Source: Isoetes taiwanensis
Taxonomy: Eukaryota; Streptophyta; Lycopodiopsida; Isoetales; Isoetaceae
Reading direction: 5' to 3'
Assembly (NCBI GenBank): GCA_021234155.1
Contig: JAJEKV010000061.1
Coordinates: 3,621,950-3,685,949 of the forward strand
DNA: 64,000 bases
A model generated the notes under the pieces. That model saw only the letters and a program-made list of their open reading frames with translations, had not been told where the DNA came from and searched no databases. The translations under genes and the position numbers were made by a program. Positions within the stretch are counted from its first letter, which is position 1, and the number at the start of each line of letters is the position of its first letter. Below, in pieces: positions 6,542 through 42,066 of this stretch.

Positions 6542-6582
6542 TAAGGCAAACATCTAGTTCCCTTCCTAGGTTTTGGTTTTCA

Positions 6583-9431: not shown

Positions 9432-9619
9432 ATTTCTTTGAATTGTATGAGGATCTCCTTGCAATCAGTTTTACAGCATGTTAGGCTTCCTGATCATCTT
9501 TGTTTAATTTTGTTTCATTCCAATGGTTTCATATCCCCTGCTTCCGGTTAATTTTCCCCCTTTTCAATTGTTAAAAAGTTTTGCATGAACTTTTGTTGTT
9601 TCTCCCTGATTTTGTCACA

Positions 9620-9985: not shown

Positions 9986-9996
9986 AAGAGCGGAAA

Positions 9997-12006: not shown

Positions 12007-12044
12007 ATCCTTCCTTCTCTATATCCCTCTCTTCTCTCATTGAT

Positions 12045-16292: not shown

Positions 16293-16542
16293 ATTCCCTG
16301 TCCATCTGGCCTGCAAATCAAGAAGCATATACTGGCTTTTATTTAATTTAGTTCTGGTTTACTTTTTTGGTGGATTATTTGGCAGGTTCATAATCCTTCG
16401 AGAATCTTCTACAATCTTCAGTTCCGGGAAAGCGAATTACTATTTACCTACTTTCACTACATTCTCCTACGGGTGACTGCTGTTTGATCTACTTCCTAAA
16501 GTGCAGACCTCATTTTGCACTCTGTTTACGCTCAGTTATCAA

Positions 16543-16563
16543 TATGCTTTTCATAAAAGCATA
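16543..16563 (+). promoter_or_regulatory. LINE B 3'-UTR hairpin
   Basis: A perfect 9-bp stem (16543-16551 with 16555-16563) with a 3-nt loop lies 55 nt before poly(A), followed by a TATG...TAATTAATG tail. LINEs A and C have 9-bp stems at the same place with different bases, suggesting a structure recognised by the RT. Confidence 0.65.
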
Positions 16564-16618
16564 CCTTTGCTATGTATTTTGAGATTTCATAATTAATGAT
16601 AAAACCAACTCTTACTTC

Positions 16619-17172
<554 letters not shown>

Positions 17173-18199: not shown

Positions 18200-18234
18200 T
18201 CCCCTGTTCCCTCTTTTCTCCCTTTATCTCCACC

Positions 18235-21200
18235 ATGAAGATTATGTCATGGAATGTGAGGGGAATGAAAGGCCCAATTAAAAGAAGAAGGATTATCTCT
18301 CAATTAAGGCTGTATAAGGCTATCTCATTTTGCTTCAGGAAACTAAACTCCCTAAATTTGAGAGTTCATCTCTTGCTGATTGGATCTACCCTGGAGCTTC
18401 TTCAATTTGGATTGAGTCCTCTGGTACCTGTGGGGGGCTTATTATGATCTGGAAAACTTTGCCTCAAGTTTCCTTTTATAACAGCAAAAGTAAAAGTTGG
18501 CAGGCAGTTATCTTTTCCATGAATAATTCTAATTTTGGAGTTATCAACATTTATGCCTTCACGTGTCCAAAAGATAGAGAAAACCTATGGCCTGAAATTT
18601 TATCTTGGATGTCCTCCCAACCTACAATTGACTGGATTGTCTCTGGAGACTTCAATAATACTCCAAATTGGGACATGAAGTTGGGCAACAGAATTAACAT
18701 GTCCAAAAATGAGAGGATTAACTGGGAAGGTATGATATCTGACCTTAATTTGATTCATATCCCTTCTTCTACTACAAAATTTACCTGGTCGAATAAGCAA
18801 AAAAATTCAAACAGAGTTTTCTGTGCTTTAGGCAGGTTCTATGTTTCCAGCTCCTCTACCTCCTTTTGGGATAACTGCTTTGTAGTAAGTGATGAGACAA
18901 CCTCTATTTCTGATCACCAACCTCAATTCCTGCATACCAAGCACCTTTTGCAATTTCCTAGAGATACCAACATCCCTTTTAAATTAAATGGCTCTCTCTT
19001 GGGAAATGAGAAATTCTGTATGGACTTTAGAAACTTTTATCTATCTCTACAAGAAAACCAAAGCTCTGATACTGGCCCTAATAGTCATCTCTCCATGAAA
19101 TCTTTTTATTCTAAGATTAAGAAAGTAAAATCTTGGATTAAGACTTGGTCTCACAGAATATACTAGGAGAAGAATAAGCTCAAAGATGAATACTTGGAGC
19201 AAATGAGGTTTATTAGGAGCCAACTCCAAGACCATCCTTATGATCTAAATCTTCAAATTGGAGAGGAATTGTTGGAAAATAAGATAAAATCAATTGAAGA
19301 AATAGATGCCAAAAGCTATGCTATCAAATGTAAGATGAAATATAATAAAGAAATGGATCTTGGGAGCTCTAAATTTTTCTATAGAACATTCAATTACTCA
19401 GGTCCAAACTGATAGTGGCTCAAATATGGACTCCCCAAACGATATTAAGCATTTCTTTCATGAGAAATATGCCTCTCTGTTTAATGGCAGGGACATGAAT
19501 TTTCCTAGCTCTCCCTCTAAAAAGGATGAGTTCATCTCTTTAATCAATCAAATCATTCCTGCCCCTGTTAACCAGATGAATGATTCCATTGCTGCTATCC
19601 CTTCCGAGCAGGAAATCTTCAAGGTCCTCATGAGCTTCTCTAAGAGCAAATCCCCTGGACCTGATGGCATACCTCCTGAATTCTATGTGGGGTTCTGGGA
19701 TATTCTAAAGGGTGACATTGTTAATCTAGTTCATGGTTATTGGAAAGCCAATCATTTACATCCCTCTATCTCTGCTGGCTTTATAACTCTAGTTCCAAAG
19801 ATTGACTCACCATTAACTTTCTCAGACTGGAGGCCTATATCCTTGACTAACTCCACATATAAATTGTGTGCTAAGATCATAGCCAACAGGATTAAACCTT
19901 TCCTTCAGATGAATATTAGTCCCGAGCAATCTGCTTTCCTCCCTAATAGATTCATTTTGGATAATTACATAGTGGCTATGGAAGGGTTGCACTGGAATAA
20001 AGTTTCTGACCAGAATTGCATTCTTTTAAAATTGGATTTCAAAAGGGCCTTCGATTCAGTGAACTGGGATTTCTTAGAATTTGCTATGCTTAAAATTGGT
20101 TTTAATCCCAAAATTATTTCTCTTATCATGGGATTAAACTCTAAAGCAAATTCAGCTGTGCTTATAAATGGCTCCCCCTCTGCTTTTTTTAATCTTTCTC
20201 GAGGGGTAAGACAAGGTTGCCCTTTGGCACCTTATCTTTTCCTGGTAGTTGCTGAGCTTCTCACAAGGGCAGTGGTTTTCCATCAATCTGCTGGTCATAT
20301 TACAGGCCTACATCTTCCTGACAATAATGGTAGTCTTATTATTTCCCAGTATGCAGATGACACCTTTGCATTTCTGGACTCGAGAACTAATAACATTGCC
20401 AAATTCTTAGGAATCATTGATCTTTTCTCTCTGCAGACCTCGAATTTGCCTTAACATTACAAAGAGTGTGATTATTGGAGACACAAATGAGAATAATATT
20501 TGTGGCATCAAGGTTCTCAATACAATGCGAGCAACCAAGGCTGGCTAGGCATGCCATTATCTCTAAATCCAAGTATCAAAGGGTTGTGGGATCCAATTCT
20601 TGAGAGAATTAGGAAGAAGTTAAATTCTTTTAGGAACTCCCTGTCTATTGCTGGTCGAACTATCATTGCCAACTCGTTCTAGCATCTTCTCATATATACT
20701 TCTCTTTCGCTCTTGTGGCTCCTAAATTCATTTACAATGAGCTTGAGAAAACCATCGAAACTTTATTTGGGGAGGTAATCACTGTGAATTGGGATACCGT
20801 CACTAGATCTAAGCCTAATGGTGGTCTAGGATGCAAAACACAGATTCTGCAAGCATGTGCCCCAGCGTGTAAATTTATTTGGAGGACCTTGTCCGGTAAT
20901 AATTCTAAAGCTTCTACTTTTATCGGATATTGGCTGAATCGCTTTTTTCCCGATGGTCACCCAAGTGTGAAGCATTGCTTACGACTCGCCCTTAACTATT
21001 TGCATCCAGGTAGAAACACCTCACCTTTGATGCAAAACATGATTAAGGCATGGAATATTGTTCACTACTGCTTTGACACTCCTGATGCTAATGATCTTAC
21101 TATGGATTCTTCCCTCTTTTGGTCTCCCCAGTTTCAGGACATCAATGGTCATATCCCTGCTTTAAGGCACCCAAGAATCTATAAGAAATGGTTGGACAAG

Positions 21201-22082
21201 GGCCTCTCTCATGTCAAGCATTTATTTAGCAATGGTCGAATTATTTCTTGGACTAGTTTGAGAAGGCTTATTCATGGCACTACTAGTGACAAATTGACTT
21301 TCCATCATTTTAAAAATATTCTGAGTCAATCTGCTAATCTCCAGGTTAATACAGGTGGTTTTTCTCTTAAGATTAATGGGATTGACAAATATAAAGTTAG
21401 TGCTGTGTATGCCTGTCTGAACCAAAAGGAAACTTCTGCTAAAGCTCAGACTCAATGGTCTATTTCTGAAATTGAATGCAAGTCCCTTTATAGGAACTGC
21501 TGGAATTCTTATTGTCCTCCCAAGATCAATTTTTTTATTTGGTTAATTGCTCATAAAAGTCTCCCTAATCTGGTCTCTCATTCTAGAAAGATCCCCACTG
21601 TTCTCCCAAATTGTAAAATGGATTGCTCCCAGGAAGAATCTATGGTACACATCTTCCAATGTCCAAAAATTGATGACTTCTGGTCTTGGTTCTATAATAA
21701 ATTTAGTGCTTTTTTCCAAGGTCAACCTCATGGCAACTTGCTCCATCATATTCAAAATAATGATGCCTTCTTAAACACCATTGTTTTCACTGCTCTTTGG
21801 AATATATGGAAGGCTAGAAACAGAATTGTATATGGCAATAAAAAAATCTCTATTTTCTGGATAAAGATGCATTTCCAGTTAGATTTGGAAGCCATTGTAA
21901 CTGCTCACAGGAGTAAATTGGGAGACAAGTATGACAAGAAATGGGATTCTGTTGGTAATTTCACAGATGTTTTTAAGTTATATATCTCATGCCTCAATGT
22001 CATTAATTCTAATGCTCCATTTTCTGATTGTCTTGATAGAGTACCTGGATTTTCTGAAAGGGGAGGGCAAGTGCAAGTTTGA
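18235..22082 (+). pseudogene. LINE C ORF2, broken endonuclease-reverse transcriptase
   Basis: MKIMSWNVRGMKGP starts the APE-type endonuclease; a frameshift near 18330, a TAG at 19164, a deletion near 19390 and frameshifts near 20440-20700 break the protein. RT motifs remain readable: KSPGPDGIPPEFY, KLDFKRAFDSVNWDF, RGVRQGCPLAPYLFL and QYADDTFAF. The C-terminal zinc region is good, with YCPPKINFFIWLIAHKSLPNL, then a C...C-E-...-H-IFQC pattern and WNIWKARNRIVYG. It overlaps ORF3. Confidence 0.88.
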
Positions 22083-22484
22083 CACAATGTTGACATATCG
22101 TGAAGTCACTTTTTGAAAATAGCTCGTGTCTCAAATTTGGAACCACCAGGACCACTAACAAGCTCGGATGACATCATGTTGTACAAGGTTAGGAGCACAA
22201 GCAATGAGTCGACTTGGGCAAAAATATTTTGTAGGGAAGTGGTGCAGACATTCTGTTTATTCAGATTCCTTTTCATGTACCACTTCTCCTTGACAGAAAG
22301 GCAGCTTAGTAGGTACAGGGAGTTATACTACTCCCATAAAATGCTGGCTGATCTCTATGGTACCCTGCTCCTGCTAATGGCCAAGGAAGATATCCATCAG
22401 CTGCTCATGGAGAATGGCTCTGAGCATAACAGTTATAAGTTTGGTAATCGACTGGTTTTCTTGGGTCTACAACCGTATCTTTGA
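22017..22484 (+). pseudogene. LINE C ORF3, frameshifted
   Basis: ORF3 begins as LIEYLDFLKGEGKCKFDTML in the +1 frame over the end of ORF2, with no nearby ATG, then stops at 22114. The rest continues in another frame as SNLEPPGP, STWAKIFCREVVQ and the core LSRYRELYYSHKMLADLYG, with a second shift after NSYKFG. The second half is nearly identical to LINE A ORF3. It supports ORF3 as a real family gene. Confidence 0.7.
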
Positions 22485-22853
22485 CCAAGCCATGCAATCC
22501 TCCTAAACTCCAGCCTTGCCACCACTCACCCTCTCCCTCTACTCCAATATTGCATCTCCATATTTTGTCATAAACTGTTGCTCAGTATATAATCTAGCTC
22601 TTGTCTAACACTTTACACATGTATTTGGAGACCAAATTTTGTCTTTGCAGGAATTGGGATCTCAGTTGGATTGGAGAATATATTGCAATATCTGTTTTCC
22701 AGCTACAACATTTTAGGGCAGTTTATTTTTATTGTGCACTCTCTTACATGACAGTCTGCCAGAATCTTTTGGTTCTTCTCAGGAAGTTACCATATTTTGT
22801 GGTGATAATGTTCCAAATGGATATTACTTGACACTTCTGCACTTTGGTTATAG

Positions 22854-22881
22854 CTAATGAGGATGATTCTTCCCTCATTAG
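22854..22881 (+). promoter_or_regulatory. LINE C 3'-UTR hairpin
   Basis: A perfect 9-bp stem (CTAATGAGG with CCTCATTAG) and a 10-nt loop end about 52 nt before poly(A). The tail TGTATGGC...TTAATTAATGG follows, shared with LINE A. Confidence 0.7.
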
Positions 22882-22965
22882 TTAAACTTATGTATGGCTT
22901 TTATTAATTAATGGAAAAAACAATCTTAACTTCAAAAAAAAAAAAAAAAAAAAAAAATGGTGGCC

Positions 22966-24265
22966 TTGGCTGTAAAGACTTATATATTCAAGCATGTGCA
23001 TTGGCTGGAAAATTTATTTGGAGAACTCTAGATGGAAACAATTCTGTAGCTTCAATTTTTATCAGATACTGGCTGAATTGCTCTTATCCTGATGGACATC
23101 CCTCAATAAAGCACTCCCTGCCTGAGTCTGCTTTCTGCACTTTACATCCAGGTACCAACACATCTCCCCTTATGCAAAACATGATTAGAGCTTGGAATGT
23201 TGTTCACAATTGTTTTGATGAGCCTACTGTGGAAGATCACAATATGAACTCTTCTCTGTTTTGGTCTGCTGGTTTCAAAGACAGCAATGGGAATACTCTG
23301 GCTTTGAGACATCCCAAAATCTATAAAAAATGGCTTCATCATAATATCACACATGTCAGGAATTTATATTCTAATGGGCATCTCATTTCATGGACCAATT
23401 TGAGGAGACTAATCCATGGCACATCCAGTGATAAAGCTGTCTACTTTCATTTCAGAAATATCCTCAACAATAATCTTAATTTATCTGAAAGTGGTAATGG
23501 TCTTCTGTGGAAAATAAATGGTATCAACAAGTATAAAGTTAGCAAAGTCTATGCTTAACTTATGTAAAAGCCAGGACAAAGTGGTCTCTAAGTAGTAATG
23601 ACTGTACTAGCCCATTGTATGGGTCCCATGACCTATTGGTCTCCGTGAACGTTAAAAAAACTATTCTATTCTATTCTATTCATACTTTATTTAATAACAC
23701 ATGGAATTCCTATTGTCCCCCTAAAGTAAATTACTTTGTCTGGTTGATTGCTCAAAAAAGTCTCCCAAATCTTGTGTCCTTGTCTAAGAGAAATTCTACT
23801 ATCAGACCTACATGTCTTTCTAATTGTTCCAGTGATGAAACCATGCAGCATATTTTTGATTGCCCTAAGCTTCTTCATTTTTGGACTTGGTTCTACAGTA
23901 AATTTGGTCACCATTTCTGTGTGCATAACCAATTTAACTTATTAAAATGCATTCAGAATAATGATGCCTTCAAGAATACTATTATGTTTACGGCTCTATG
24001 GAACATTTGGAAAGCAAGGAATAGGATTGTGCATGGCCATAAAAATTTTTCGTTATTCTAGATTAAAATGCATTTTCAACTGGATCTAGAAGCTTTTGTT
24101 ACTGCTCACAGAAGTAAATTTGCAGAATCTTATGACAGGAAATGGGATGCAATTGGTAACTTTATAGGTGGCTTTAACATCTTTGTTTCAGACCTTCATG
24201 TCATTAATTCTAATGCCCCTTTTTCTGATGTCATTGATAGAGTATCTGGAATTTCTCAAGGGTGA
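22966..24265 (+). pseudogene. LINE A ORF2, C-terminal part
   Basis: It resumes the RT connection and zf-RVT-like tail after LINE C: NGGLGCKDL, SWTNLRRLIHGTSSDKA and YCPPKVNYFVWLIAQKSLPNL, then zinc-ligand residues ending HIFDC and WNIWKARNRIVHG. Lesions are a TAA after KYKVSKVYA (about 23556), an insertion at 23606-23680 and a TAG at 24059. The end overlaps ORF3. Confidence 0.85.
23606..23680 (+). mobile_element. Short 3'-end fragment of a non-L1 LINE with (TTCTA) tail
   Basis: About 75 bp interrupts ORF2 of LINE A between NDCT and LFNNTW. It ends with repeated TTCTA and contains the phrase GGGTCCCATGACC...TTGGTCTCCGTG. Similar phrases are found at the 3' ends of the LINE E family (44850-44880, 55325-55360 and, on the minus strand, 57525-57550). 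It is a severely 5'-truncated insertion. Confidence 0.65.
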
Positions 24266-27508: not shown

Positions 27509-27652
27509 TATAGAATAGAATAGAATAGAATAGAATAGAATAGAATAGAATAGAATAGAATAGAATAGAATAGAATAGAATAGAATAGAATAGAATAGAA
27601 TAGAATAGAATAGAATAGAATAGAATAGAATAGAATAGAATAGAATAGAATA
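27509..27652. repeat. (TAGAA)n pentanucleotide tract, tail of LINE D
   Basis: About 28 tandem TAGAA units form the 3' tail (TTCTA on the minus strand) of LINE D, followed by its 3' UTR and coding region to the right. Frames across it (SILFY repeats) are artefacts. Confidence 0.9.
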
Positions 27653-27881: not shown

Positions 27882-28684
27882 TCAGATTATTAGCCCTCTC
27901 TCTTTGTGCACCCCCCGGTGTCTTATTATCATCTCTTTTATAGCTTTCGCTACATCTGTGAGTGTCTCTTCTTTGTCCATCAGTGCTGGGAGTGGGAGAT
28001 CCCACCTGACCTTGTTAAATTTGGACCTTATGTCTGTGTAGACCGGGCATTCCTTGACCATATGTGCTTCGTCTTCTATTTTTCCTGAATCACATAGTCG
28101 ACATATTCGTTCTGCTCTATCTATTTTTCTCCATCTATCTTTCTCAATTCGAAGGTCGTGGCTCCCCATTCTGAACCTAGCCAGCGTCCCTCTGTTGCTC
28201 CTACTCAACATGTTGCTTTTGTATGTGATATGTCCTATCTGTCCCCCTGGATTGAAGGCTCCCAATAGCCAGTCTGTTTTAGGCCCTGTGTGTCGTGCTA
28301 GCCAGCTTCTCATTGCCCTGCTTGTCCATTCTTCGTCCCATCCATCCGCTTGTATAATATGGCTTAGTTGCATCCCCATGCTTGCCGTCCACTTCGCCAC
28401 TTTATTAAACCATCCCTTGCATGTTACTATGTGTTGCTTTGCTGATTCATCTATTGCCAGTGACGATAGTTTGTCCTCTTTCCCATAACTGTTGTCTTTT
28501 ATTAGGTACCTGATTGTTCTTTCCCATGCTCTCACTTCCATTGGCTTTTCCCCTGTTTCATATATGATTGTTGCTAATGATGTACCTGCCTTAATCTGGA
28601 ATTCCTGTCCGTGCCATTGCCTCAGTATGCCTTCCTGTTTTTCCCATTTCTTCTCTGACAGACCTGGCCCCCACGTCTCACATC
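27882..28684 (-). pseudogene. LINE D C-terminal region with zinc-ligand motif
   Basis: About 267 codons are open on the minus strand, from the LTR boundary to the end of the LINE protein. Near the C-terminus it has RAERICRLCDSGKIEDEAH...CPVY, a CCHC-type pattern found after the RT in many non-LTR elements, and an RFRMGSHDL block before it. It belongs with the RT at 42067-43070. The frame by itself is undamaged but separated from its RT by 13.4 kb of inserted DNA. Confidence 0.75.
28680..28684. repeat. Target-site duplication of the gypsy element, left copy
   Basis: ACATC here and at 42062-42066 flank TGTGACG...CGTCACA exactly; 5 bp is the normal length for Ty3/gypsy integrases. Confidence 0.85.
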
Positions 28685-30343
28685 TGTGACGTTCCAGCAC
28701 AGTATACGGTCCCAGGACGTATACTGTACTGCCCCGTCACGCGTACACGTCATCCCGACTGACGTATAGCCAAGTGGGTAGCCCTAGGGGGCAACTTGCT
28801 AGAAATGTGCATTGGCATTAATGTGCACATTTACCAATGTACACATTAATGTGGGCACACATTTCCATATGGACACCTTATGCCAAGTGGGCCATACCCA
28901 TAGGTGCAATTAATGTGCACATTTTCCAATGTGCACCTTCATTAATGTGCACACATTTCCATGTGGGCACATTTTGCCACCTAGCCATTAATGGCTAGTG
29001 GGCCCATTCCCAATTATCCCACATGCCAAAAGGGGATAATTGGAAACCCTAACCAACCCCCATGTCTATTTAGGAGGGGAAACCCTAACTTGCCCAATTT
29101 CGTTTCTAGGGCTTTAGAACTCTGTTTTGGCTGCCTCAAGAGCCAAAACCGCATCCCAGACTCTGCCTGAGTGAACTATACCTTTAGTTTCCCTTGATTC
29201 GAGCGTTTCAGCAGGATGGTCGAGCTCAGGTCAGGAGGAGTCCCTCAAGGATCAGGTATTTAAGCAATTTAATAGCTTAAACCCTCCTTTAGTCATAAAA
29301 TCAGTAGGTTTAGCCTATTAAATTGCTCATAGCAGCCTTCTAGATCTCTAGATACCAGACTCTAACTAAAGAACCTAACTCTATGATATAGATTAGATCT
29401 TGTTCTTTAGTTCTCTTATGATGTATGTGGATGAGGTTTCTCTATGAACTCCTTGTATTGGGAAGGGGGGTAGAGACCTAAAGCTTGGTAGTGGATGCTC
29501 CTAGATTAGCCTCTCTAGCACCATATAGATTCGGCCTGTGTACAAGAGCCACACCGGGTTGTGGGTGAAGGGGCTAGACTGGCTCATAAGGAGGTTCGTG
29601 TCCTGACTCTTGAACGATCCCTCTGGCGTGTAAAGTCTACCGGGGATCATTGAGACTAGGTCTAATGGCTTGCCACTGAGTGTGGGCAGGGCATGGGCTC
29701 GACACCCGTGAAGTGGGGTTCACTTTCCATTGGGTTCAAGTCGAATAAGAGCAGTGGCTCTCTAGTCTCCTTGAGTCAGCATGTAGATCTCTGGGAGTGA
29801 TCCCCTCCCCCCCATCGGACACAGGGAGATGTAACCCGGGAATAGCCCTTTTGGCTATGCATCCCGTGAGGGCTCTGATCCGATCCCAACATTTTTTAAC
29901 CTACTACGCAAAGTGTGCAATGAGGGGCGGATGGAGTGGACTACCCATTGCCAAGTTCTTATGCCCGCCAAATCCATTGTCATGAATTACATGCGCAATG
30001 AACTCACGGAGACCCAAGCTTGTCGGTCCATCCCCGTATGCGAGCCTTGGGTAGGATTCCCTAAATGCATTGTCTTTGATCATTGTCTATGCAGATGTGA
30101 TGTACCACCCGTGAGGGGTGGATATATGTGTTGCTCTTATATACTTGACATGTATGTTTACGCTTCTTCCGCAGACTAGGTAGGCCCCGAGGGAGGCGGG
30201 GTGAAATGACCCCTTCACTCTTCCCCAATTTGGAACCCGTTACGGTTCTGCGGTGTTATGTGGAGGGCCCCCAGATCGGCATGGAGCTGGTATAGGGGAG
30301 AACTCCTGTTTGTATCTGGTGGGTGCACCGTAGGGGATCGCCA
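28685..30343 (+). repeat. 5' LTR
   Basis: It starts TGTGACG. Long stretches are nearly identical to 40387-42061, with small indels and a diverged first 90 bp. The 3' boundary is uncertain by a few bases because the expected CGTCACA end is altered. A 70-bp block with TTAATGTGCACATTT is duplicated inside the LTR (28817-28885 and 28908-28979, also in the 3' LTR). Near the start, GTATACG and CGTATAC form a 7-bp stem. Confidence 0.88.
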
Positions 30344-30347
30344 GCGA

Positions 30348-30358
30348 TGGTATCGAGC
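30348..30358 (+). promoter_or_regulatory. Primer-binding site, initiator-Met tRNA type
   Basis: TGGTATCGAGC closely resembles the common plant PBS TGGTATCAGAGC and lies just inside the 5' LTR. Confidence 0.7.
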
Positions 30359-30554
30359 AATGTTCTTGGTGACCAAGAGCAAAGCAATCGACCATGTTCC
30401 CGATGAGTACTAACTTAGTAGGATCCTTAAACCTCGAAAAATGGGAAATTTTTTTTCTCATTTTTGTAGTATTGCTAAGCTAGTAACAGTTAAAATATAT
30501 AAAAACATAAAAAGGAGTAAGAATTGGTGAGCCAACCTTCAAAAAAATGGGGTG

Positions 30555-30621
30555 GTCTCACACGTCGCGCCAGGACAGATTTTGAGATTCTCAAAATCGG
30601 GCTGGGCGCAACGTGTGAGAC
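30555..30621. repeat. 67-bp hairpin repeat, copy 1
   Basis: Arms GTCTCACACGTCGCGCC and GGGCGCAACGTGTGAGAC pair around a central dyad TTTTGAGATTCTCAAAA, so almost the whole 67 bp can fold. It is one of four copies and of the same type as copy 3. ACGTGT cores in the arms resemble ABRE-like bZIP sites. Confidence 0.85.
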
Positions 30622-30755
30622 ATTCAGCTTGAACCCATCAAAAAGTTATGAATTACAATAAAATAGCTTGATAATTCTAAATTAGAGCGAAGAAACAGTA
30701 GAATTAGCAAGTTACATAACTAAAAAGTAGCAAATTTGATAGTGGACCCCACCAT

Positions 30756-30822
30756 GTCTCACACGTCGCGCCAGGACAGAAAATGAGATTCTCAAAATCG
30801 GTCTGGGCGCAACGTGTGAGAC
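30756..30822. repeat. 67-bp hairpin repeat, copy 2
   Basis: The outer arms are the same, but the left inner arm reads GAAAATGAGA and so no longer pairs fully with CTCAAAATC. It is the same type as copy 4 and lies 201 bp from copy 1. Confidence 0.85.
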
Positions 30823-30903: not shown

Positions 30904-30913
30904 CTATAAATAG
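30904..30913 (+). promoter_or_regulatory. TATA box of pre-gag unit 1
   Basis: CTATAAATAG is a consensus plant TATA box lying 109 bp before the H3-like ATG. Transcription would start near 30935-30940, where CCCTGCTTAGAAAATTCGCT parallels the same place in unit 2. The presumed 5' leader contains TTTTGGCGCG (about 30976), a fit to the E2F consensus of S-phase genes; that link is inference. Confidence 0.65.
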
Positions 30914-31012: not shown

Positions 31013-32286
31013 ATGGCCCGGACGAAACAAACTGCTAGAAAGCCTCGCCGAAGCACATCCTCCAGCGCCAGTGACCCCAGTCTGATTCAAAGGGCACTTC
31101 GCGAACGCCTTCTCAATCACGGGGAATCTTCATCAAGCGAGGGGACAGACTCGGACCGGAGCAATCAGACGGAGATCATAGGGGAGGAGCGCCCGGACAT
31201 CATGCAGCAAATCCTTGAAGAGATCGCCGAGGAGGAAAGGAGAAGCAGGGAAGAACGGGAGCAGAGGGGACAGCCGACTGTCGAACAACAGCTCGAAGCT
31301 TGGGCCCGTCTGCAAGAGGAGGAGGAGAGACAGAGCAGCCGGCAACGCCGGCTTATCCCTTCGAGGAAGCAGAGACCTTGCATGCTTCATCGCCAAGTAT
31401 GAAGACAAGGAGCGTCGCCAGGAGCAGAGGACGAAGAACCGGGAAGAGGGTCCAACCATAGCCGGCGGGCCGAAGAAGAAGAGGAAGGCCAAGGCCATCA
31501 ACGCCGGCGTAAGAGTCGCCAAGGTTGGTAAGCCGAAGGAGGGCCCCGGCCATCAATGAGCCGTCGGTGAAGAGACCCCCCGCCGACCGACGACTCGGAC
31601 GACGATTATGTCCCCAACGCAGAGGGGACAAGCTCTTCGAGAACCCCGGTCGCAGAAAAGGAGGTACCCGAGCAAAGGTGGCGCCTGATGGGCAGCAGCC
31701 TGGATAGCCGCAGCAAGCCCCCCCACCATTCCCGACGTGGGACAGAGTCAAAGCCCCGCGGCCGCAACGGGAAGCTTATGTGATAGACCCCGTAAAGGTC
31801 TATCAGAAGAGGATCAAGGAGCACAACGCTTTACATGGCGGGGCGGGAGGCCTACAATGCCTATTACCTACCGTGGAGAACAATGAGAACAATCGAAGGC
31901 GGACATCCGACAAGAAGCCAAACATTGAAGCCCCCACCACCCAGGCCCAAGCCTCCCAGAGCACCAGGGAAGAAGCGAAGCAAGAAGAAGAAGTCGGAGG
32001 ACAGAGCTCTCAAGGAAATCCGGCACTTCCAGAAGAGTTACGGACTCTTGATTCCTCGGGCACCGTTCCAACGCTTGGTCCGTGAAGTCATGCAGGAGTA
32101 CAACACCTGGACATCGCGAGTAACAAGCACGAGATCTTTGCTGTGCTTTACGAGGAGGCAAATGGAGGCTTAAAATAGTGCAAACATTTTGAAGATTCGA
32201 CGGCCTGCACAGTACACGCGAAGAGGGTTACCCTCATGAGGCAGGATATGTATCTTGCCAGGCACATCAAGGGAGAACGCCCTTGA
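31013..32286 (+). pseudogene. Degenerate histone H3-like gene (CENH3-leaning) inside the retrotransposon
   Basis: The frame opens MARTKQTARKP, identical to the H3 tail through K9 but with P instead of S10. A long charged, probably disordered middle follows, with an E/R-rich helix (about residues 64-110) and, after a shift to another frame, GPKKKRKAK (31467-31487), an SV40-like nuclear signal. The histone fold begins at 32003: [24 protein letters not shown] (alphaN-alpha1), shifts frame near 32105, and ends [14 protein letters not shown] and [19 protein letters not shown] before TGA at 32284. [22 protein letters not shown] and an extra three residues in loop 1 resemble plant CENH3; PFQRLVRE resembles H3. 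Total about 424 codons against 136 for H3. Frameshifts and a TAG at 32176 make it non-coding as it stands, unless unrecognised introns exist. Confidence 0.85.
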
Positions 32287-32430: not shown

Positions 32431-32497
32431 GTCTCACACATCGCGCCAGGACCGATTTTGAGATTCTCAAAATCGGGCTGGGCGCAACGTGTGAGAC
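32431..32497. repeat. 67-bp hairpin repeat, copy 3
   Basis: Same type as copy 1, with the full inner dyad TTTTGAGATTCTCAAAA. It starts the second promoter block. Confidence 0.85.
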
Positions 32498-32629: not shown

Positions 32630-32696
32630 GTCTCACACGTCGCACCAGGACAGAAAATAACATTCTCAAAATCGGTCTGGGCGCAACGTGTGAGAC
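32630..32696. repeat. 67-bp hairpin repeat, copy 4
   Basis: Same type as copy 2, 199 bp from copy 3. The pair spacing matches copies 1 and 2, so the promoter block was duplicated as a unit. Confidence 0.85.
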
Positions 32697-32874: not shown

Positions 32875-32884
32875 CTATAAATAG
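32875..32884 (+). promoter_or_regulatory. TATA box of pre-gag unit 2
   Basis: CTATAAATAG is identical to the unit 1 box. It is followed about 30 bp later by CCCTGCAAGTTTGCTCTCC and GGCGATCTTCC, which parallel the unit 1 leader. The likely ATG is at 32999. Confidence 0.65.
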
Positions 32885-32998: not shown

Positions 32999-34400
32999 AT
33001 GGCCACTGCTGACTTCAGGCGATGGTACAGCGCCAGTGCCCATGCTGCTGAAGCAGATATCGATGACATCTTCCGCGTCTTCGAGAAGGAAATTGATATC
33101 AAGCTACTGGCCCGAATGCAACCCGACATATAGGCAAGTACTAGCGAGTTCCAAGCTAGGGTAGAACCTTCCCTTGTCCGTGGTTCCCCCCCCCTCGTAG
33201 GATACTTTGTTCCCCGCCAATCCCTTCAAGCGCCCTTGGGTGATGTCCCCAACATCGCCAAGTACTTAACCAACAAAGCGCAGAGGGTTACCCGACTACA
33301 TGGTCCTCGACCACAACTAACGCGGGACCAAGTACTTCTCCTACACCGCTGCCTTAGCCATTTTCTTATCCCACCGTGCGAAAACCCAATGGGGCAACCT
33401 CTATCCCTCCGATGGAGGTGGACCCCCATAGCAAAGGCAAGCATAAGAGCAGAGATGCTTTTTGCGCACCAACAAGAGCGAGAACGAGAAGATTAAGAAG
33501 AAGAGAAGTCCGACAACGATAAGTATCACGGAGCTCGACTCGGAGGAGGAACGGCAACAAGCGAAACAGAGGCGATGAACCCGGCGGCGGCCGTGCACAA
33601 CATCGAGTTGCTCCCCCACTCGGGCTAGGCATCACAAGCCTAGCCCCAATCATCATCAATCGAGAGGATATTTGCTCCTCAACGACATCCGAACCTTCCC
33701 GAAAAGGGAGAGGGAGCCTCGATGGATGAATTACTCCACCAGCCCACGACGGTCGGACTTGGGCGACTTCATCGTCCGGGAGCCCCTGGACTTTCGCTCC
33801 AAGTGAGGGAAGCCGACACCTACACAGTGAGAGTCGACTTGGGACATACAGCTTGCCAGCAAAGATCGAAAATGATGGAGGAGCAAGAGCTGCCAACGGA
33901 GGAAGAGTTCCTCGCCCTCCAAGAACAGATGGGGATCCGTGGGAAAACCACGAGTATTTTAATGCCGAGGCCTTCGACACCACCTCCATCAAGAGGAGAA
34001 GGAATCGACCTCAGACGAATCGACACCATAATCGAAAACTACAGGAGCTCACCGATAGGGGGGTCGGCCGAATCACGCTGGACGGCATAGAGCAGGAGGC
34101 CAATCCAGCGGAGAAGCTTCAGCGACGCACAATGACAGGTCCCTGAGGTACTACCTGCCGCTGCTACTAGATGGGAGAATAGCGGTAATCCACCGCAAGT
34201 TCAGCCCCAGAGGTGAAGAAGGAGTGTTCATGCTGATTGCACTCTCAGGCTTCGGCAGACATGCTCGCATAGCGCCAAATGTCGACTATGCTGTCCTGGT
34301 CAAGAGAGCAATGGCGCTTGACCTCTTCGACTTCGCCATACCCCATCGACGCCGCGAGATTACGGCCACCGCCCAGCCCTCACATCGTAATCAGTAGGGT
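32999..34400 (+). pseudogene. Unrecognised second pre-gag gene, degenerate
   Basis: The first ATG after the TATA box gives MATADFRRWYSAS..., with a helical acidic stretch (DIDDIFRVFEKEIDIKLLAR). A TAG at 33131 interrupts it, but the same frame is then open to 33496 (TLTR-free, containing VPNIAKYLTNKAQRV). Codon-like sequence continues in other frames: KIKKKRSPTT and a D/E-rich patch near 33500, DLGDFIVREPLDF near 33755 and an uninterrupted 84-codon stretch at 34147-34400 with RYYLPLLLDGRIAV and ALSGFGRHARIAP. GC-rich composition sets it apart from the flanks. I cannot assign a family. It is not evidently another core histone. Confidence 0.5.
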
Positions 34401-34731
34401 CGAAGAGCTGGTGAGAGCCTTGCGGCTCGCTCGCCGCCAGCGTCATCGAACTTGGGTCATTCTAGGAACGCCCAAGTTAAGAAGTTCCTTGAGGACAACC
34501 CGTCTTACCTGGTGTGATTTCAAGATTAGTTAGACTCTTGATCCCTGAGACTATATAATATAAATATAATTTCTCTTGCACTTTAAAATGTTTTGTTGAT
34601 ATGCCTTGCCCCACAACTATACCAACAAACATAAACAATGCAAGAGAACAAGTAAATCTAACCATATAGCCATGAATTACTTGTGTATGCGCTTAGAGGC
34701 CTCGGCCAGAGAACAACAACGCCGAGACATC

Positions 34732-35945
34732 ATGGAAGAACAGACCCCGCCCAGACCACCTTCGGCAAGGAACCTATTTGAAGAAATGGAACCCATGACC
34801 CCAGAGGAGGAGATATCCCAGATAAGGACGGACCTTGAGCATATAAAGGCCCTACTAGCCGCACAAGCAGGAACAGGTTCAGTGGGCAACGCTCAATTGC
34901 CACAAGCAGCAGCTCGGAAAACAGGAAGGGACAAGAGGAGGAGCAAGAGAAGGAGATCCCCCAGCTCAGATTCCTCCGACTCAAGCTCAGACTCAGATTC
35001 CGACTCCGAGGAAGAAGAAGAGCAGGCCCGGGACCGACCAGATGGAAGGCAAAGGAACACTGAAGATGGAAGACAGAGGAACACCCCAGAGGGACGACAA
35101 AGGGACACAAGAGTCTCTGACTACCAGAAGAAGGTAGACTCTGCTTTGGGAAATGTTTGGAAAGCCGAAAAAACTTCGAAAGCAATTCTCGGGCGAACAA
35201 AAGTCGTCGAATGGAGGCCGAGGCTTGGCTTGATGAAATGAGTGAATACGGCAACGCTTATGGTATGAAGGACAAGGATAAAGGCCGAGTAGCAACAGCC
35301 AACCTGAAAGGAGCAACACGCATTTGGTGGAAGGGGTATGCAAAGGCCCATGGATTGAGCAGGGATGCTTGCAGGTTCAAGAAGTTTGCTAAAGCCTTCA
35401 AGCGCCACTACGTCCCAAGAGAGCACAAGTCCAAATGATGATGCGCCAGCTTCTATAGGTTGCAAAGGGGAAACAAATCAGTCCGTAAGTATCTGAGGGA
35501 ATTCATGAGGCTAAGGCTGTATGTGCCCAAGTTAGGAGAGAAGCATGCAGTGGAAAGCTATATTGAGGGGCTGAATGATGAGATTCGCAAACTGGTGAGG
35601 GCAATAAACCCTAAGACAGTATCAGAAGCGGAATGCAAGGCTATAAGCTTGCAAGGAACGGGACATCAGAATAGTGGGCAGAGGCAGCAGTATTTCCAGG
35701 AGAAAGGCAAAGCATCAGGGAGCTATAGCCCTAGAGCAAAGAAGCCCAGTCCAAAGCTAGAGCCCCATATGGTGGCAATCAAGGGAAGCGTAACGAGAAG
35801 AAGCGGTGTCCTTCAAGGACAAGCAAGAGGGCTCAAACTACTCCAAAGCAAAGACGATCCTTTTACAGAGCTATGCCCAAGGAGAAGAGGCAAGAGTGCA
35901 TGGAGAAACAAAGCTTTGCTTCCGAGATGCTTCCAAAAGCCATAG
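34732..35945 (+). pseudogene. gag of the gypsy element, frameshifted
   Basis: The likely start is MEEQTPPRPP, after an AT-rich spacer. The N-terminal part has a leucine/isoleucine helix (EEISQIRTDLEHIKALLAAQ), a basic SR-like patch and an S/D/E run. After a frameshift near 35160-35215 the capsid-type Retrotrans_gag region follows (EAWLDEM, GATRIWWKGYAKAHG, then, after two stops at 35436, QRGNKSVRKYLREFMRL and ESYIEGLNDEIRKLV). A nucleocapsid zinc knuckle cannot be made out, probably lost in the damaged region around 35760-35940. Confidence 0.8.
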
Positions 35946-37014
35946 AACAAATGAACCCCCCTATGTTATGAGTGCAGCACTAGCGAGGGTGGGAGATTGG
36001 GACATCCCATCGATGATGGCGACGGCGGCCGAAGCAGCCCGTGACTACATCCGGGGTGAGTGTCATATCTTTGCCGCAATAGATACTGAGAGCAAGCGGA
36101 GTCAATATAAGGTAATTTCCACAGTAGGGAAGGCCAAAGCCAAGTCTTTCATAGTCCTGATAGATTCAGGAAGTAGCCATAATTTTGCGTCCCCAAGAAT
36201 GGTGCAAATGTTGAAGTTGAGACCGCTGAAGTCAAACCCGAGATCCGTTATTCTAGCAAGTGGGGCAGTAAGGCAGACAGCAGGCAAGAGGATCAACTTC
36301 GACATCGATCTGCCAGGTATAACCATCCAGATGGGGGCAGAAGTAATGGGCATTGGCAAATATGATTTAATCATAGGAATGGAGTACCTTGGACCGGCGG
36401 GGGCCATCATTGATTGTGGAAAGCGGAAAGTGACCTTCCCAACGTCCGACGGCAAGATTATTGAGATCACAGGTAAGGAAGTTGTTCCCATCATGCAGTG
36501 CATGTCTTCTAAACGGCTGTTCAAGTCAATCAAGAGTGAGCAGATAGCATACATCTTCAAGCTTGAGATCGAAGAGCCGGAGTCCGAAGAAAGCAAAGAA
36601 GACAAGGTGCTCAGTAAGTTGCCGAAGCAGATAGCTAACTTGATCACGGAATTCCATGATCTCTTTCCTGATGAGATCGAGCATCTCCCTCCTTACAGGG
36701 GAGTCGAGTGTGAGATAGCACTCGAACCGGGAACGAAGCCGACACGTAAGGTTCCATACAGAATGACGACGCAGGAATTGACAGAGCTAAAGAAGCAATT
36801 GCAGGAGTTGCTCGACCTAGGCTTTATTAGACCTAGCGTTTCGCCATTTGGAGCGCCCATTCTTTTTGTCAAGAAGAAGGATGGCAGTTTGAGGATGTGC
36901 ATAGACTATAGGCAGTTGAACAAGCACACCATCAAAAACAAGTATGCGCTTCCCAGGTCAAATGACTTGATGGATCAGCTTCAAGGAGCAAAAGGTCTTC
37001 CAAAATCGACTTAA
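35946..37014 (+). pseudogene. pol: aspartic protease and start of reverse transcriptase
   Basis: An open frame covers the retroviral-type protease with [13 protein letters not shown] (DSG catalytic motif at about 36163), a typical LILASGAV/G.EYL pattern and a linker. The RT N-terminus follows: [62 protein letters not shown] and YALPR. It ends in a frameshift at about 37000 within [10 protein letters not shown]. Protease cleaves the Gag-Pol precursor; RT copies the element RNA from the tRNA primer. Confidence 0.88.
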
Positions 37015-37503
37015 GGTCGGATATCATCAGATCCGGATAAAGGAAGAAGATATTCATAAGACCGCCAGGGCGCTGGTATGGACATTATGAGTTCACGGTA
37101 ATGCCTTTCGGCTTATCGAACGCTCAAAGAACGTTCATGAGGCTCATGAACGATATCTTCAGGGAGTTCTTAGACACCTTTGTGATAGTGTTCTTTGACG
37201 ACATTTTGGTGTATAGCAGATCCCTTGAAGAGCACGCATAACACTTAAGGAAGGTGCTGGAAAAGTTGAAGAGGCACCGGTTGTTAAGCCAAGTTGTCGG
37301 GTGTCACTTCGCCTTGAGGAAAAGGTGGAATATCTTGGTCACGTGATCTCGGCGAAGGAATTTCGACGGACCCTTCCAAGATTGAAGCCGCCATTCAAAG
37401 GCCGGCACCGAAGAATGTGCATGAGGTCGAAGTTTTCACCTAGCCTAGTGGTACTACAGAAGTTAAGTGAAGAACTTTGCTAAGATAGCGCCCCGCCAAT
37501 GAC
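37015..37503 (+). pseudogene. pol: reverse transcriptase palm, damaged
   Basis: RT sequence continues through several frames: [32 protein letters not shown] and [24 protein letters not shown] (catalytic DD at about 37197-37202; in many elements the motif is Y/F-x-DD), then EKVEYLGHVISAKEF. An in-frame stop at about 37239 and frameshifts near 37010, 37070 and 37300 inactivate it. Confidence 0.82.
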
Positions 37504-39123
37504 TTGACGAGGGCGAAAAAAGTGAAAGATTGGGTAGATCATTGGCACAAGAAAGCCCAAAAGGGGTTTGAATTGTTGAAGGAAGCCTTAACAACCGCCC
37601 CCGTCCTAACCCTGCCAGACCCAGAGAAAGATAAGCTTGTAGCAACAGATGCGAGTAAGATAGCTACAGGTGCAGTGCTCATGCAAGAAGAGCGTGTCGT
37701 AGCGTATGACTCCAGGAAGATGAACGACGCTGAAACGCGCTACCCCACGCATGATCAAGAGCTGCTTGCGGTTGTCAGGGCATTAAGAATTTGGAGGCAT
37801 TACCTTTTGGGAAGAAAGTTCCAATTGGATACGGATCATCAGAGCCTCCAGTATGTATTTACGCAACCACATCTCAACCTGAGGCAGAGAAGGTGGATGG
37901 AGTTCCTTGAAGAGTATGACTTTGATATAGTCTACAAGCCAGGGAAGCTCAATGTGGTAGCGGATGCGCTTTCAAGGCATCCCCTGACAACTAGAGTGCA
38001 TTGCAATGCAATTTCGACGCTTTCCAGCGACTTCGGGAAGAAGATCGAAGAATTCTTGCCAACAGATGTCGACTTCAAGGAAGTATGGGCAAGCTTATGC
38101 AGGGAAGCAAGAACAGATAAGGAACGGGAAGCCTTCAAACATTTTAAGAAGGAAGGTAACCTATTATATCATAAGAACAAGTTGTGTGTGCCAGAATCTT
38201 CAGGAGTAAGGAAGTTGATCCTCCATGACACACACAACAGTCCAATAGCTGGCCATGCGGGGTTCATGAAAACATATTTCAAAGTACGCAGCAGCTATTA
38301 TTGGCCAGGAATGAAGAAGCAGGTAGCTCGCTACATCAAGGAATGTCAGCTTTGTCAGCAAACGAAGGCAGAACAGCTTCGAATTCCAGGAGCTTTGGAG
38401 CCCTTAGCGGTGCCAAACGCTAAGTGGGAGGTCATCAGCATGGATTTCATCACAGGGCTTCCAAGGACAGTAAGAGGGAAGGATGCTTTGATGGTAGTAG
38501 TCGACAAGTTGTCGAAGATGGCACATTTCGTGCCTTGCAGGACTACAGATACAGCTATGGATACAGCAAAGCTCTTCACCAAAGAGATCTTTAGGCTTCA
38601 TGGCATGCCAAGGGAGATCATCTCCGACAGGGATCCGAAGTTCATGAGCGCCTTTTGGCAAGACCTCTTTGCGACCATTCAGACGAAGTTATCCATGAGC
38701 ACGGCGTATCATCCTCAGACGGATGGCCAAACGGAGCGGACCAACAGAATTTTGGAGGACATGCTACGAAACTATGTCTGGAATAAACAAGGTATGTGGG
38801 AAGAATTTATTCACTTGGTGGAGTTTGCATACAATAGCACCAAGCAAGAATCATCCCAAATGTCGCCGTTTATGATCAATTACGGTTATCAATGCCTAAC
38901 TCCAGACACTTGGCACAATCCTGTGTCAAAAGTAGAAGTCTCCCAGCAGATGTTGGCCGATATGCAGCAGCTCGTGGAAGAGGTGCGAGGGTATCTCCTA
39001 GCAGCAAGGAGTCGGCAGAAGAGCATCGCCGACAAGCATCGAAACGATCGAAGAATTCGTTGGCGACAATGTGTGGCTCAAGATCAAGGTGAAGCGGCGA
39101 AGTCTCGCGATCGGAAATTGTAA
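37504..39123 (+). CDS. pol: RNase H and integrase core
   Basis: 539 codons are open. RNase H occupies about residues 20-155: LVATDASKIATGAVL, YPTHDQELLAVVRAL, LDTDHQSLQYVF and NVVADALSRHP, with the expected D-E-D acidic residues. Integrase has an HHCC zinc domain (HNSPIAGHAGF...CQLCQQ), then the DDE core: MDFITGLP, SDRDPKF, AYHPQTDGQTERTNR. RNase H removes template RNA, and integrase joins the cDNA to the chromosome. The frame is lost near 39060-39123, where the integrase C-terminal domain continues in the next frame. Confidence 0.88.
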   Translation: MTRAKKVKDWVDHWHKKAQKGFELLKEALTTAPVLTLPDPEKDKLVATDASKIATGAVLMQEERVVAYDSRKMNDAETRYPTHDQELLAVVRALRIWRHYLLGRKFQLDTDHQSLQYVFTQPHLNLRQRRWMEFLEEYDFDIVYKPGKLNVVADALSRHPLTTRVHCNAISTLSSDFGKKIEEFLPTDVDFKEVWASLCREARTDKEREAFKHFKKEGNLLYHKNKLCVPESSGVRKLILHDTHNSPIAGHAGFMKTYFKVRSSYYWPGMKKQVARYIKECQLCQQTKAEQLRIPGALEPLAVPNAKWEVISMDFITGLPRTVRGKDALMVVVDKLSKMAHFVPCRTTDTAMDTAKLFTKEIFRLHGMPREIISDRDPKFMSAFWQDLFATIQTKLSMSTAYHPQTDGQTERTNRILEDMLRNYVWNKQGMWEEFIHLVEFAYNSTKQESSQMSPFMINYGYQCLTPDTWHNPVSKVEVSQQMLADMQQLVEEVRGYLLAARSRQKSIADKHRNDRRIRWRQCVAQDQGEAAKSRDRKL

Positions 39124-39535
39124 GAAGCTTGCTCCAAGGTGGGCGGGACCTTTCAAAATAGTCCAGAGAGTAGGTAACCAATCCTACAAGCTAGAATTGC
39201 CGCCGCACCTAAAGATTCATAAGGTCTTCCACGTGAGTTTACTGAAGAAGCACACTCCAAACCCAGACGAAGTCTTGGACACTCCAACGTTGTTGGAAAT
39301 GACGGAGGAGGAGCTGGAAATAGTTCCAGAATTGATTCTTGATAAAGCTTTCAAGAAAACAAGGAGATCAGAGTTCCTTCAGTATTTGGTCAAGTGGAAA
39401 CACTTGCCAGTGGAAGACGCCACGTGGGTACTTGAGAAAGACCTAGTAAAGAAGTATCCACAGTTCATGGAGCAATGGGACGGCAAAGTCATCTCCGAAG
39501 AAATCGGCTCAGGCATGTCGATTTGTGTAGATTAA
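39071..39535 (+). CDS. Integrase C-terminal domain and chromodomain
   Basis: This continues integrase in a +1-shifted frame. APRWAGPFKIVQRVG...YKLELP...HKVFHVSLLKKH is the GPY/F-type module of gypsy integrases. It is followed by a chromodomain with FLQYLVKWKHLPVEDATW (about 39375-39430) and EKDLVKKYPQFMEQW. In chromoviruses this domain binds modified histone tails, often H3K9me, and guides insertion into heterochromatin. Its presence beside an H3-tail-like gene in one element is striking. Confidence 0.88.
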   Translation: MWLKIKVKRRSLAIGNCKKLAPRWAGPFKIVQRVGNQSYKLELPPHLKIHKVFHVSLLKKHTPNPDEVLDTPTLLEMTEEELEIVPELILDKAFKKTRRSEFLQYLVKWKHLPVEDATWVLEKDLVKKYPQFMEQWDGKVISEEIGSGMSICVD

Positions 39536-40373
39536 TTCTATGTGTAGTTAAGATTAATCTACGCATGCAACCTATGCTAGGTATGGGTTGCATGCGTTGT
39601 AACCGATGATGAGACCGCTACGGTGATCTCTAGGGCGTGGTGTAATGTCGATGTAGGCATGACCGCGTTTCCGCTTGGAAGAGTGGAAGGTAGATTAGAA
39701 AGTCTACTTCTGTTCCACGGAAGTAGACGACCTCGAGAGAAAGGAGGTCATGGAAGGATGCATTCATAGGAAAAGCACCTCTAGCCCCATATATGCTTTG
39801 ATAGGAGGAATCGGCCTTCACGCCCCCACACGGGGAGGACCTATCCTCCACGGCCCAAGCAACTAGGGTGTAGGCATGAGAGGCATATAGGCATTTAGGC
39901 GCTGTCTCCTCGGCCATTATGGAAGATTCATCCTCTTCCTACGCCGGGAGATTAGCCATGCATCCATGTAGATAGGTGGGGTGGTCACCATATAACCAAA
40001 ATTTTATTAATAATTAAATGGTACTAACGTAGTGTCGACCTGCAGGCCAATAGAGCTCCCGAGGGGGCAAGGAGGTCGAGCTACGAAGACTTGCAACACA
40101 AATTTTGTTGGAATGTGTTGCAAGGAATGAAGAGTACCTCGGACGTTAATTTGAATTTTGATAAACTTGATTGCCATGATAAGTGAAGTATTGAGTAACC
40201 TGTTTTAATGATGTTGTGAATTGATAAGTTATTTCATAATATAATCGCGTAATAATGTTCTAAAAATATTACCTTAAGGTAATGTTAATAAATGTGTAAA
40301 TGTGATAGGAGTATATTATATGTATCAGGGTGATTGCAGGTTAGGAAGATCCCGCTGCGGACATCATCATTTC
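39536..40373 (+). other. Non-coding 3' internal region of the gypsy element
   Basis: About 0.84 kb lies between the chromodomain stop and the polypurine tract. No gene is seen. Confidence 0.5.
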
Positions 40374-40386
40374 AAGGGGGAGAGAA
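40374..40386 (+). promoter_or_regulatory. Polypurine tract
   Basis: AAGGGGGAGAGAA lies immediately before the 3' LTR start TGTGACG and is the expected plus-strand primer site. Confidence 0.85.
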
Positions 40387-42061
40387 TGTGACGTTCGGCC
40401 AAATATACGGTCCCGGGGCGTATATTTATCTTGCCGCCAGCGTACCCATCCCGATCGACGGCGTGTCGTGTACGCCGACATATAGCCAAGTGGGTAGCCC
40501 TAGGGGGCAACTTGCTAGAAATGTGCATTGGCATTAATGTGCACATTTACCAATGTACACATTAATGTGGGCACACATTTCCATATGGACACCTTATGCC
40601 AAGTGGGCCATACCCATAGGTGCAATTAATGTGCACATTTTCCAATGTGCACCTTCATTAATGTGCACACATTTCCATGTGGGCACATTTTGCCACCTAG
40701 CCATTAATGGCTAGTGGGCCCATTCCCAATTATCCCACATGCCAAAAGGGGATAATTGGAAACCCTAACCAACCCCCATGTCTATTTAGGAGGGGAAACC
40801 CTAACTTGCCCAATTTCGTTTCTAGGGCTTTAGAACTCTGTTTTGGCTGCCTCAAGAGCCAAAACCGCATCCCAGACTCTGCCTGAGTGAACTATACCTT
40901 TAGTTTCCCTTGATTCGAAAAGTTTCAAATAGGATGGTCGAGCTCAGGTCAGGAGGAGTCCCTCAAGGATCAGGTATTTAAGCAATTTAATAGCTTAAAC
41001 CCTCCTTTAGTCATAAAATCAGTAGGTTTAGCCTATTAAATTGCTCATAGCAGCCTTCTAGATCTCTAGATACCAGACTCTAACTAAAGAACCTAACTCT
41101 ATGATATAGATTAGATCTTGTTCTTTAGTTCTCTTATGATGTATGTGGATGAGGTTTCTCTATGAACTCCTTGTATTGGGAAGGGGGGTAGAGACCTAAA
41201 GCTTGGTAGTGGATGCTCCTAGATTAGCCTCTCTAGCACCATATAGATTCGGCCTGTGTACAAGAGCCACACCGGGTTGTGGGTGAAGGGGCTAGACTGG
41301 CTCATAAGGAGGTTCGTGTCCTGACTCTTGAACGATCCCTCTGGCGTGTAAAGTCTACCGGGGATCATTGAGACTAGGTCTAATGGCTTGCCACTGAGTG
41401 TGGGGGGGGGCATGGGCTCGACACCGTGAAGTGGGGTTCACTTTCCATTGGGTTCAAGTCGAATAAGAGCGGTGGCTCTCTAGTCTCCTTGAGTCAACAT
41501 GTAGATCTCTGGAGGGGGGTGATCCCCGCCGCCCCCATCGGACACGGGAGATGTAACCCGTGAATAGCCCTTTTGGCTATGCATCCGGCCGAGACTCTGA
41601 TCCGATCCCAACATTTTTCAACCTACTCGCAAAGTGTGCACATGAGGGGCGGATGGAGTGGACTACCCATTGTCAAGTTCTTATGCCAGCCAAATCCATT
41701 GTCATGAATTCTGTCTGCAATGAACTCTGGAGACCCAAGCTTGTCAGTCCATCCCTGTGTCTGAGCCTTGGGTAGGATTCCCTAAATGCATTGTGCTGAT
41801 CATTGTCTATGCAGATGTGATGTACCACCCGTAGGGGTGGATATATGTGTTGCTCTTATATACTGACATGTATGTTTACGCTTCCGCAGCTAGGTAGGCC
41901 CTGAGGGAGACGGGGTGAAATGACCCCTTCACTCTTCCCACTGGAACCCGTTACGGTTGCAGTGTTATGTGGAGGGCCCTGTATCGGCATGGAGCTGGTA
42001 TAGGGGGAGAACTCCTGTTTGTATACGGTGGGTGCACCGTATACGAATAGGGGACGTCACA
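40387..42061 (+). repeat. 3' LTR
   Basis: 1675 bp, TGTGACG...CGTCACA, with perfect 7-bp terminal inverted repeats. GTATACGGTG and CACCGTATAC near the 3' end form a 10-bp stem (42021-42044), and ATATACG/CGTATAT forms a stem near the start. Confidence 0.9.
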
Positions 42062-42066
42062 ACATC

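Follow-up and report, generated by a model that had tools for sequence, protein, structure and literature searches.

In Isoetes taiwanensis, a chromodomain lineage of Ty3/gypsy retrotransposons possesses a gene for a histone H3 variant (about 418 residues), which lies between the 5' LTR and gag, is preceded by a TATA box of its own and is under selection in the copies that were examined. We are nearly certain of this statement. A copy of the element lies in the window, i.e. the whole stretch of 64,000 nucleotides that was analysed (assembly GCA_021234155.1, contig JAJEKV010000061.1, positions 3,621,950 to 3,685,949). An earlier note on this DNA had placed a histone H3-like gene inside a Ty3/gypsy element, between the 5' LTR and gag and within both LTRs and the target duplication. 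The type of element is supported by Pfam matches to protease, RNase H, integrase and chromodomain, and the position of the H3 block by the LTR coordinates and the ACATC duplication (Table 1). The LTRs of the window element have TG...CA ends with the target duplication on both sides, and 1514 of the 1583 columns in the aligned part of the pair are identical (96%). The Pfam matches to protease, RT_RNaseH and integrase follow each other in the order of Ty3/gypsy elements; a Pfam RT match was not obtained in the two pol pieces of the window element, where the RT part was recognised by eye. The RNaseH-IN piece shares 39-51% identity with database sequences among the matches listed. Moreover, four similar hairpin repeats of 68 bases form two pairs (repeats 200 bases apart), one pair upstream of each of two accessory genes, the H3 gene and a second gene designated ORF2. 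The paired hairpins are a duplicated regulatory module, and a similar promoter module serves the H3 gene and the non-gag ORF2. The leader that follows the TATAAATA of ORF2 bears a weak resemblance to the H3 leader. As regards the surroundings, an ATAGA pentanucleotide array is located at 27510-27650 of the window, just outside the element, and numerous frames that look LINE-like by eye (reverse transcriptase, endonuclease) lie at 4475-23558. The H3 element is apparently nested in a further LINE-like sequence, which lies on the minus strand (by eye).

Table 1 Features of the H3-bearing element in the window (position 1 is the first base of the window)
Feature	Position	Strand	Remarks
Target duplication ACATC, 5' side	28680-28684		directly before the 5' LTR
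5' LTR	28685..30347	+	starts with TGTGACG; 3' end approximate
Primer-binding-site-like stretch	30348..30359	+	presumably resembles the complement of the initiator Met-tRNA
Hairpin repeat 1 of 4, TCTCACACG...CGTGTGAGA	30555..30622	+	H3-gene side
Hairpin repeat 2 of 4	30756..30822	+	H3-gene side
TATAAATA of the H3 gene	30905..30912	+	about 100 bases upstream of the H3 ATG
H3-like gene, frame-broken	31013..32286	+	MARTKQTARK start, then a long novel tail and the H3 fold
Hairpin repeat 3 of 4	32431..32497	+	second promoter module
Hairpin repeat 4 of 4	32630..32696	+	second promoter module
TATAAATA of the second gene (ORF2)	32876..32883	+	present in 18 of 20 copies
ORF2, frame-broken in the window	33001..34533	+	508 aa in the relative L042:4364-5887
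Third TATAAATA	34559..34566	+	just upstream of gag
gag region, frame-broken in the window	34600..35945	+	assigned by position
Protease and start of reverse transcriptase	35794..37011	+	RVP_2, E 3.6e-9; RT part by eye
RNase H and integrase	37489..39120	+	Pfam
Integrase C-terminal SH3-like part and chromodomain	39002..39532	+	PF00385, E 4.3e-11
Polypurine tract	40371..40386	+	by eye; adjoins the 3' LTR
3' LTR	40387..42061	+	paired with the 5' LTR
Target duplication ACATC, 3' side	42062-42066		directly after the 3' LTR

The window copy of the H3 gene begins, as had been described, with MARTKQTARK in one frame and ends with blocks that are co-linear with the H3 fold before a stop. The proposed Pfam search of the forward frames gave two colinear matches to PF00125 in two different frames, one at window:31796-32170 (E 3e-11, profile 8-69) and the other at window:32179-32283 (E 2.1e-6, profile 95-122), and the first piece is also matched by H3 chains of the PDB (E 5.6e-11). 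These matches are far beyond chance. The fold of the window gene has H53 and F54 in place of the R and Y of canonical H3. The copy is broken, as stated in the earlier note, because the reading frame shifts repeatedly between its start and its stop. Compared with the closest relative that has an intact gene, the window H3 gene differs by 88 substitutions and 14 indel events in 1252 columns, ORF2 by 155 and 34 in 1503 columns, the stretch upstream by 22 and 4 in 459 columns and the stretch between H3 and ORF2 by 17 and 3 in 712 columns. Fully open H3 genes compared with each other differ by 194 substitutions and 1 indel event and by 219 and 1 in 1254 columns. The differences between the window LTRs are clustered, too. 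The breaks of the window copy may in part be assembly errors, which is meant as a suggestive reading only.

The genome (1,658,258,908 bases, 1110 contigs) was searched with a piece of the H3 gene, and 150 of the 7163 first-look candidates were scored. All 150 places, the window included, match with 72-100% identity. The question whether intact relatives exist can be answered with yes: for 41 of the 150 places, the open frame from stop to stop has 405 aa or more, in 39 cases without a stop inside the match. A MART start followed by at least 380 aa without a stop was found at 10 of 50 loci (8 distinct; the set comprises 44 distinct loci besides the window). The ends of these eight distinct near-full ORFs are H3-like in five and altered or cut in three. 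The layout was read by tblastn and blastn in 20 regions of 10 kb from 17 contigs (rows 8 to 144 in steps of eight as well as rows 6 and 11). The recurring order in these copies is 5' LTR, hairpins, TATAAATA, H3, hairpins, TATAAATA, ORF2, gag, PR-RT and RNaseH-IN. An LTR match was present in 18/20 copies, ORF2 and gag in 19/20 each, and PR-RT and RNaseH-IN in 17/20; TATAAATA precedes H3 in 18/20, ORF2 in 18/20 and gag in 15/20, and the full set of four hairpins was found in 10/20. The exceptions are L051 with nothing downstream of H3, L054 in which no pol was found, L058 with an apparent insert and pol beyond the 10-kb region, and L049 and L053 without an LTR match. Furthermore, with 102 scored pol places, a same-strand pol lies within -15 to +30 kb for at least 25 of the 150 H3 places (window included), for 19 of these 25 at 3.6-5.0 kb downstream of H3 and for the others at 7.2-29.5 kb. 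On the opposite strand, no scored pol place was found within 15 kb of any of the 150. Among the matches listed, open frames of related pol genes reach 1622 aa in this genome. Other copies lacking the H3 block, which would have made the gene a one-off capture, were not encountered among the copies examined, all of which had been found via H3; the share of elements without H3 cannot be read from the 150 places because they were chosen by H3 similarity. In the copies examined, the H3 gene is a regular and selected part of the element and not a captured fragment.

The copies had been ranked by their similarity to a piece from the first half of the fold, and therefore dN/dS was determined for the second half, which lies outside the ranking query. 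In 34 of 44 distinct copies, this half runs without interruption to a stop at an identical length. Among these 34 copies, the median pairwise omega is 0.046 (dS 0.50, dN 0.023), and 31 distinct DNA sequences encode 18 distinct proteins. An earlier value for the fold (0.040), for which the copies had been ranked by partly the same residues, is superseded by that of the second half. For comparison, pieces of 60 codons from the same regions gave an omega of 0.031 for RT (12 copies), of 0.087 (10 copies) and 0.05 (8 copies) for ORF2, and a higher value of 0.258 for integrase (9 copies). Thus, the H3 gene is kept about as strictly as the RT piece. In the eight near-full ORFs, omega is 0.15-0.17 for the H3 tail and 0.077 for the part just before the fold; the value of 0.126 for their fold is inflated by the three whose ends are altered or cut. 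All omega values retain the bias that the copies were found through H3. Judged from these comparisons, the H3 fold is under purifying selection.

The intact gene L060:2394-3647 encodes 418 aa, of which residues 289-417 match H3.3 in the PDB (E 1.2e-28) and Pfam Histone (E 1.1e-27), so that the H3 fold is present over its full length. In contrast, the N-terminal tail of H3 (residues 1-38) is not kept: residues 1-9 after the Met alone are those of H3, and the rest is replaced by about 300 residues of unrelated tail, with no Pfam match from the tip to about residue 290. A tip was recognisable at 21 of the 44 distinct loci, and at the other 23 the search pattern found no start. K9 occurs in 21/21 and K4 in 20/21 of these tips, the pattern having limited the letters at both positions; residue 10, which the pattern left free, is P in 20 tips and L in one and never S. 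The 35 listed folds of the window type retain C110, H113, R116, D123, L126 and I130, which we take to be H3-H3' contacts. The centromeric variant CENH3 has a longer loop 1 in its fold. An identity with CENH3 was set aside, since the 90 fold residues align to canonical H3 without any insert and loop 1 is no longer than in canonical H3. The element protein has the full histone fold and the tip of the tail in common with canonical H3, H3.1, H3.3 and CENH3, but it differs from them by its length of about 418 aa and its roughly 300 residues of unrelated tail, and a CENH3-like longer loop 1 is absent.

Plants silence retrotransposons through histone H3 marks. As far as can be judged from its sequence, the element protein is most likely an H3 variant that enters chromatin, or a mimic of H3. 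We tentatively propose a counter-defence at the level of the histone. The protein would be made and would enter the host nucleus, its conserved fold would pair with H4, and the variant would be incorporated into nucleosomes on element or host DNA. The tip with the methylatable K4 and K9 and without S10 would then be shown on the long new tail to host enzymes and readers, and the reading of element chromatin, perhaps also of host chromatin, would shift in favour of the element, most likely through weaker silencing of the element. While this counter-defence is possible rather than probable, we give about even chances to the whole statement that combines the architecture, the selection and a chromatin-entry mechanism. 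Entry into nucleosomes is not assured because the window-type fold shares only 49/90 residues (54%) with canonical H3 and has a proline at R63, which we take to be a DNA-contact arginine of H3. Moreover, a simple loop between K9 methylation and the integrase is a weak idea because the chromodomain of the element, which is CHD_II-like, apparently has, as judged by eye, neither Y24 nor Y48 of its three-residue aromatic cage. Plant CHD_II chromodomains are described as lacking these residues as well (PMC3350952). If the proposal is true, an element equipped with a selected H3 could act against silencing through the histone itself, as has been described for a DNA virus (bracovirus H4) but, among the open-access titles and starts of abstracts covered, for no LTR retrotransposon.

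Phosphorylation of S10 releases readers of K9 methylation, and the loss of S10 in the window type and in database relatives would remove this switch beside K9. This loss, together with a tip that is identical to H3 beside a freely changing tail, would also suit an H3 mimic or decoy, which soaks up or misdirects the writers and readers of K4 and K9 without being incorporated into nucleosomes and uses its fold for stability or for binding a chaperone. We consider this explanation unlikely; a pure mimic of the tip is disfavoured because it would need no constrained fold, whereas the fold is the most constrained part that was measured (omega 0.046) and keeps the putative H3-H3' contacts. Somewhat less likely still is a role in the particle or before integration, in which the histone would bind RNA or cDNA of the element in the virus-like particle or carry the complex into the nucleus. 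The protein does contain very basic stretches, and its gene shares the element with gag, but neither the own TATA box nor the H3-identical tip is obviously needed for packaging. It is very improbable that a captured host H3 gene is passively carried along as pseudogene cargo: the window copy is broken and 109 of the 150 scored places are without an open frame of at least 405 aa, yet promoter and position recur, 31 distinct DNA sequences encode 18 distinct proteins, and the omega of 0.046 at a dS of 0.50 between copies contradicts this explanation as it stands. Hardly any credence is due to an artefact of the assembly or to a host family of long-tailed H3 genes with unrelated LTR elements beside or inside it. 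In most of the 20 regions from 17 contigs, H3 keeps near-constant distances to the LTR, ORF2, gag and pol, and this contradicts the explanation as it stands, even though host-like H3 genes exist at at least 15 places (95-97% identity), the window copy is indel-rich and the published assembly of 1658.30 Mb in 204 scaffolds and 909 contigs is Nanopore based (PMC8566536).

The proposed counter-defence, a variant acting in host chromatin, may also involve the second accessory gene. For the 508 aa of ORF2 (L042:4364-5887), neither a Pfam match nor a significant PDB match was obtained. ORF2 is under purifying selection in the two pieces for which omega was determined (0.05-0.087), and it carries an acidic stretch that could suggest a chaperone. 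The ORF2 protein may be a partner that works with the element H3.

The earlier note knew of no LTR retrotransposon with a core histone gene, and none with a histone gene was found among the titles and starts of abstracts of the open-access papers that were covered. The element itself is of a known kind; what is new is its accessory gene for a selected H3, and the surprise is that this gene encodes a conserved histone. Plant chromoviruses are described as having the same gag-pol domains and a C-terminal chromodomain, that of the Isoetes element being CHD_II-like by eye (PMC3350952; PMC2864245). In comparison with these elements, the Isoetes element adds H3 and ORF2 before gag, each with its own TATA box. 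The nearest case is the H3 captured by hAT DNA transposons of the fungus Pseudocercospora fijiensis and its relatives, in which a mobile element also carries an H3-like sequence, derived from a transcript or retrocopy, and amplifies it to hundreds of copies (PMC6710886). However, 90% of the H3-like copies of these DNA transposons are given as truncated, and in P. fijiensis all copies except the original are reported to be inactivated by RIP (PMC6710886). The Isoetes element differs in being an LTR retrotransposon and in having a long rebuilt protein, an own promoter and purifying selection. A DNA transposon of the fungal hAT type with terminal inverted repeats and a transposase was ruled out, since the element has LTRs and pol. 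As to function, the best analogue is the H4 of the Cotesia bracovirus, likewise a core histone encoded by a parasite; it reportedly joins host nucleosomes and alters host expression via its N-terminal tail (PMC5423620). The virus-encoded histones described in these sources belong to DNA viruses, whereas the Isoetes H3 resides in an LTR retroelement (PMC5423620; PMC9145170). In the main text of the review on viral histones, 'retrotranspos' and 'retrovir' occur 0 times (PMC9145170).

Long proteins with an H3 fold also exist in databases. Among 71 candidates, 46 are of this kind, mostly ENA proteins of 237-453 aa. A profile search that started from 21 of them matched 7305 of 8000 scored candidates, ordinary histones and fusions included. 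In a set of 137 proteins (P0001-P0137), 126 belong to the family by the rule applied (presence of LTLPT or RHFQ), and some of the 11 that were dropped may be true members. The proteins of this set typically have 380-450 aa, many start with MARTKQTARK and end in an H3 fold, and most have H53 and F54 and lack S10. In the 84 relatives with an H3-like start, K9 is present in 84, K14 in 83 and S10 in 1, and K4 in 83, which is partly forced by the selecting rule. H53 occurs in 106/108 and F54 in 108/108 of the database folds, which is favoured by the RHFQ part of the rule. In a tree, the window type groups weakly (69/85) with part of the database relatives. At least one relative, P0079, comes from another genome, since its matches in this one do not exceed 81% identity for the fold and have 44-59% where they are longer. 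The AlphaFold model of one database relative has a mean pLDDT of 44, and Foldseek gave no significant match for it. Scans of IMG/VR yielded no relative. A scan of GTDB gave 11 loci, the H3 frames read in eight of them being ordinary or other H3, and tblastn with four tails against the 11 loci detected the H3 tip and weak short matches alone. The canonical H3 used as a yardstick is that of one GTDB locus.

The query of this genome with canonical H3 (150 of 9022 first-look candidates scored) uncovered, besides the host-like genes mentioned above, a second group of long H3 genes at at least 135 places, with 69-84% identity to canonical H3. This group is more canonical than the window type, and many of its genes are open frames of 400-567 aa. 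None of the 135 places is near one of the 102 scored pol places, and for another pol (53 places) a single neighbour from this group was seen by eye within 15 kb, at about 12 kb and on the opposite strand. The second group and similar genes of at least one other source may represent further H3-bearing element lineages, and long genes annotated as 'histone H3' in such genomes may be transposon-borne. In the database set, P0033, P0037, P0038 and P0041 form a distinct group of long-tailed H3-like proteins with 237-242 aa, and the two members that were read lack the H3 tip.
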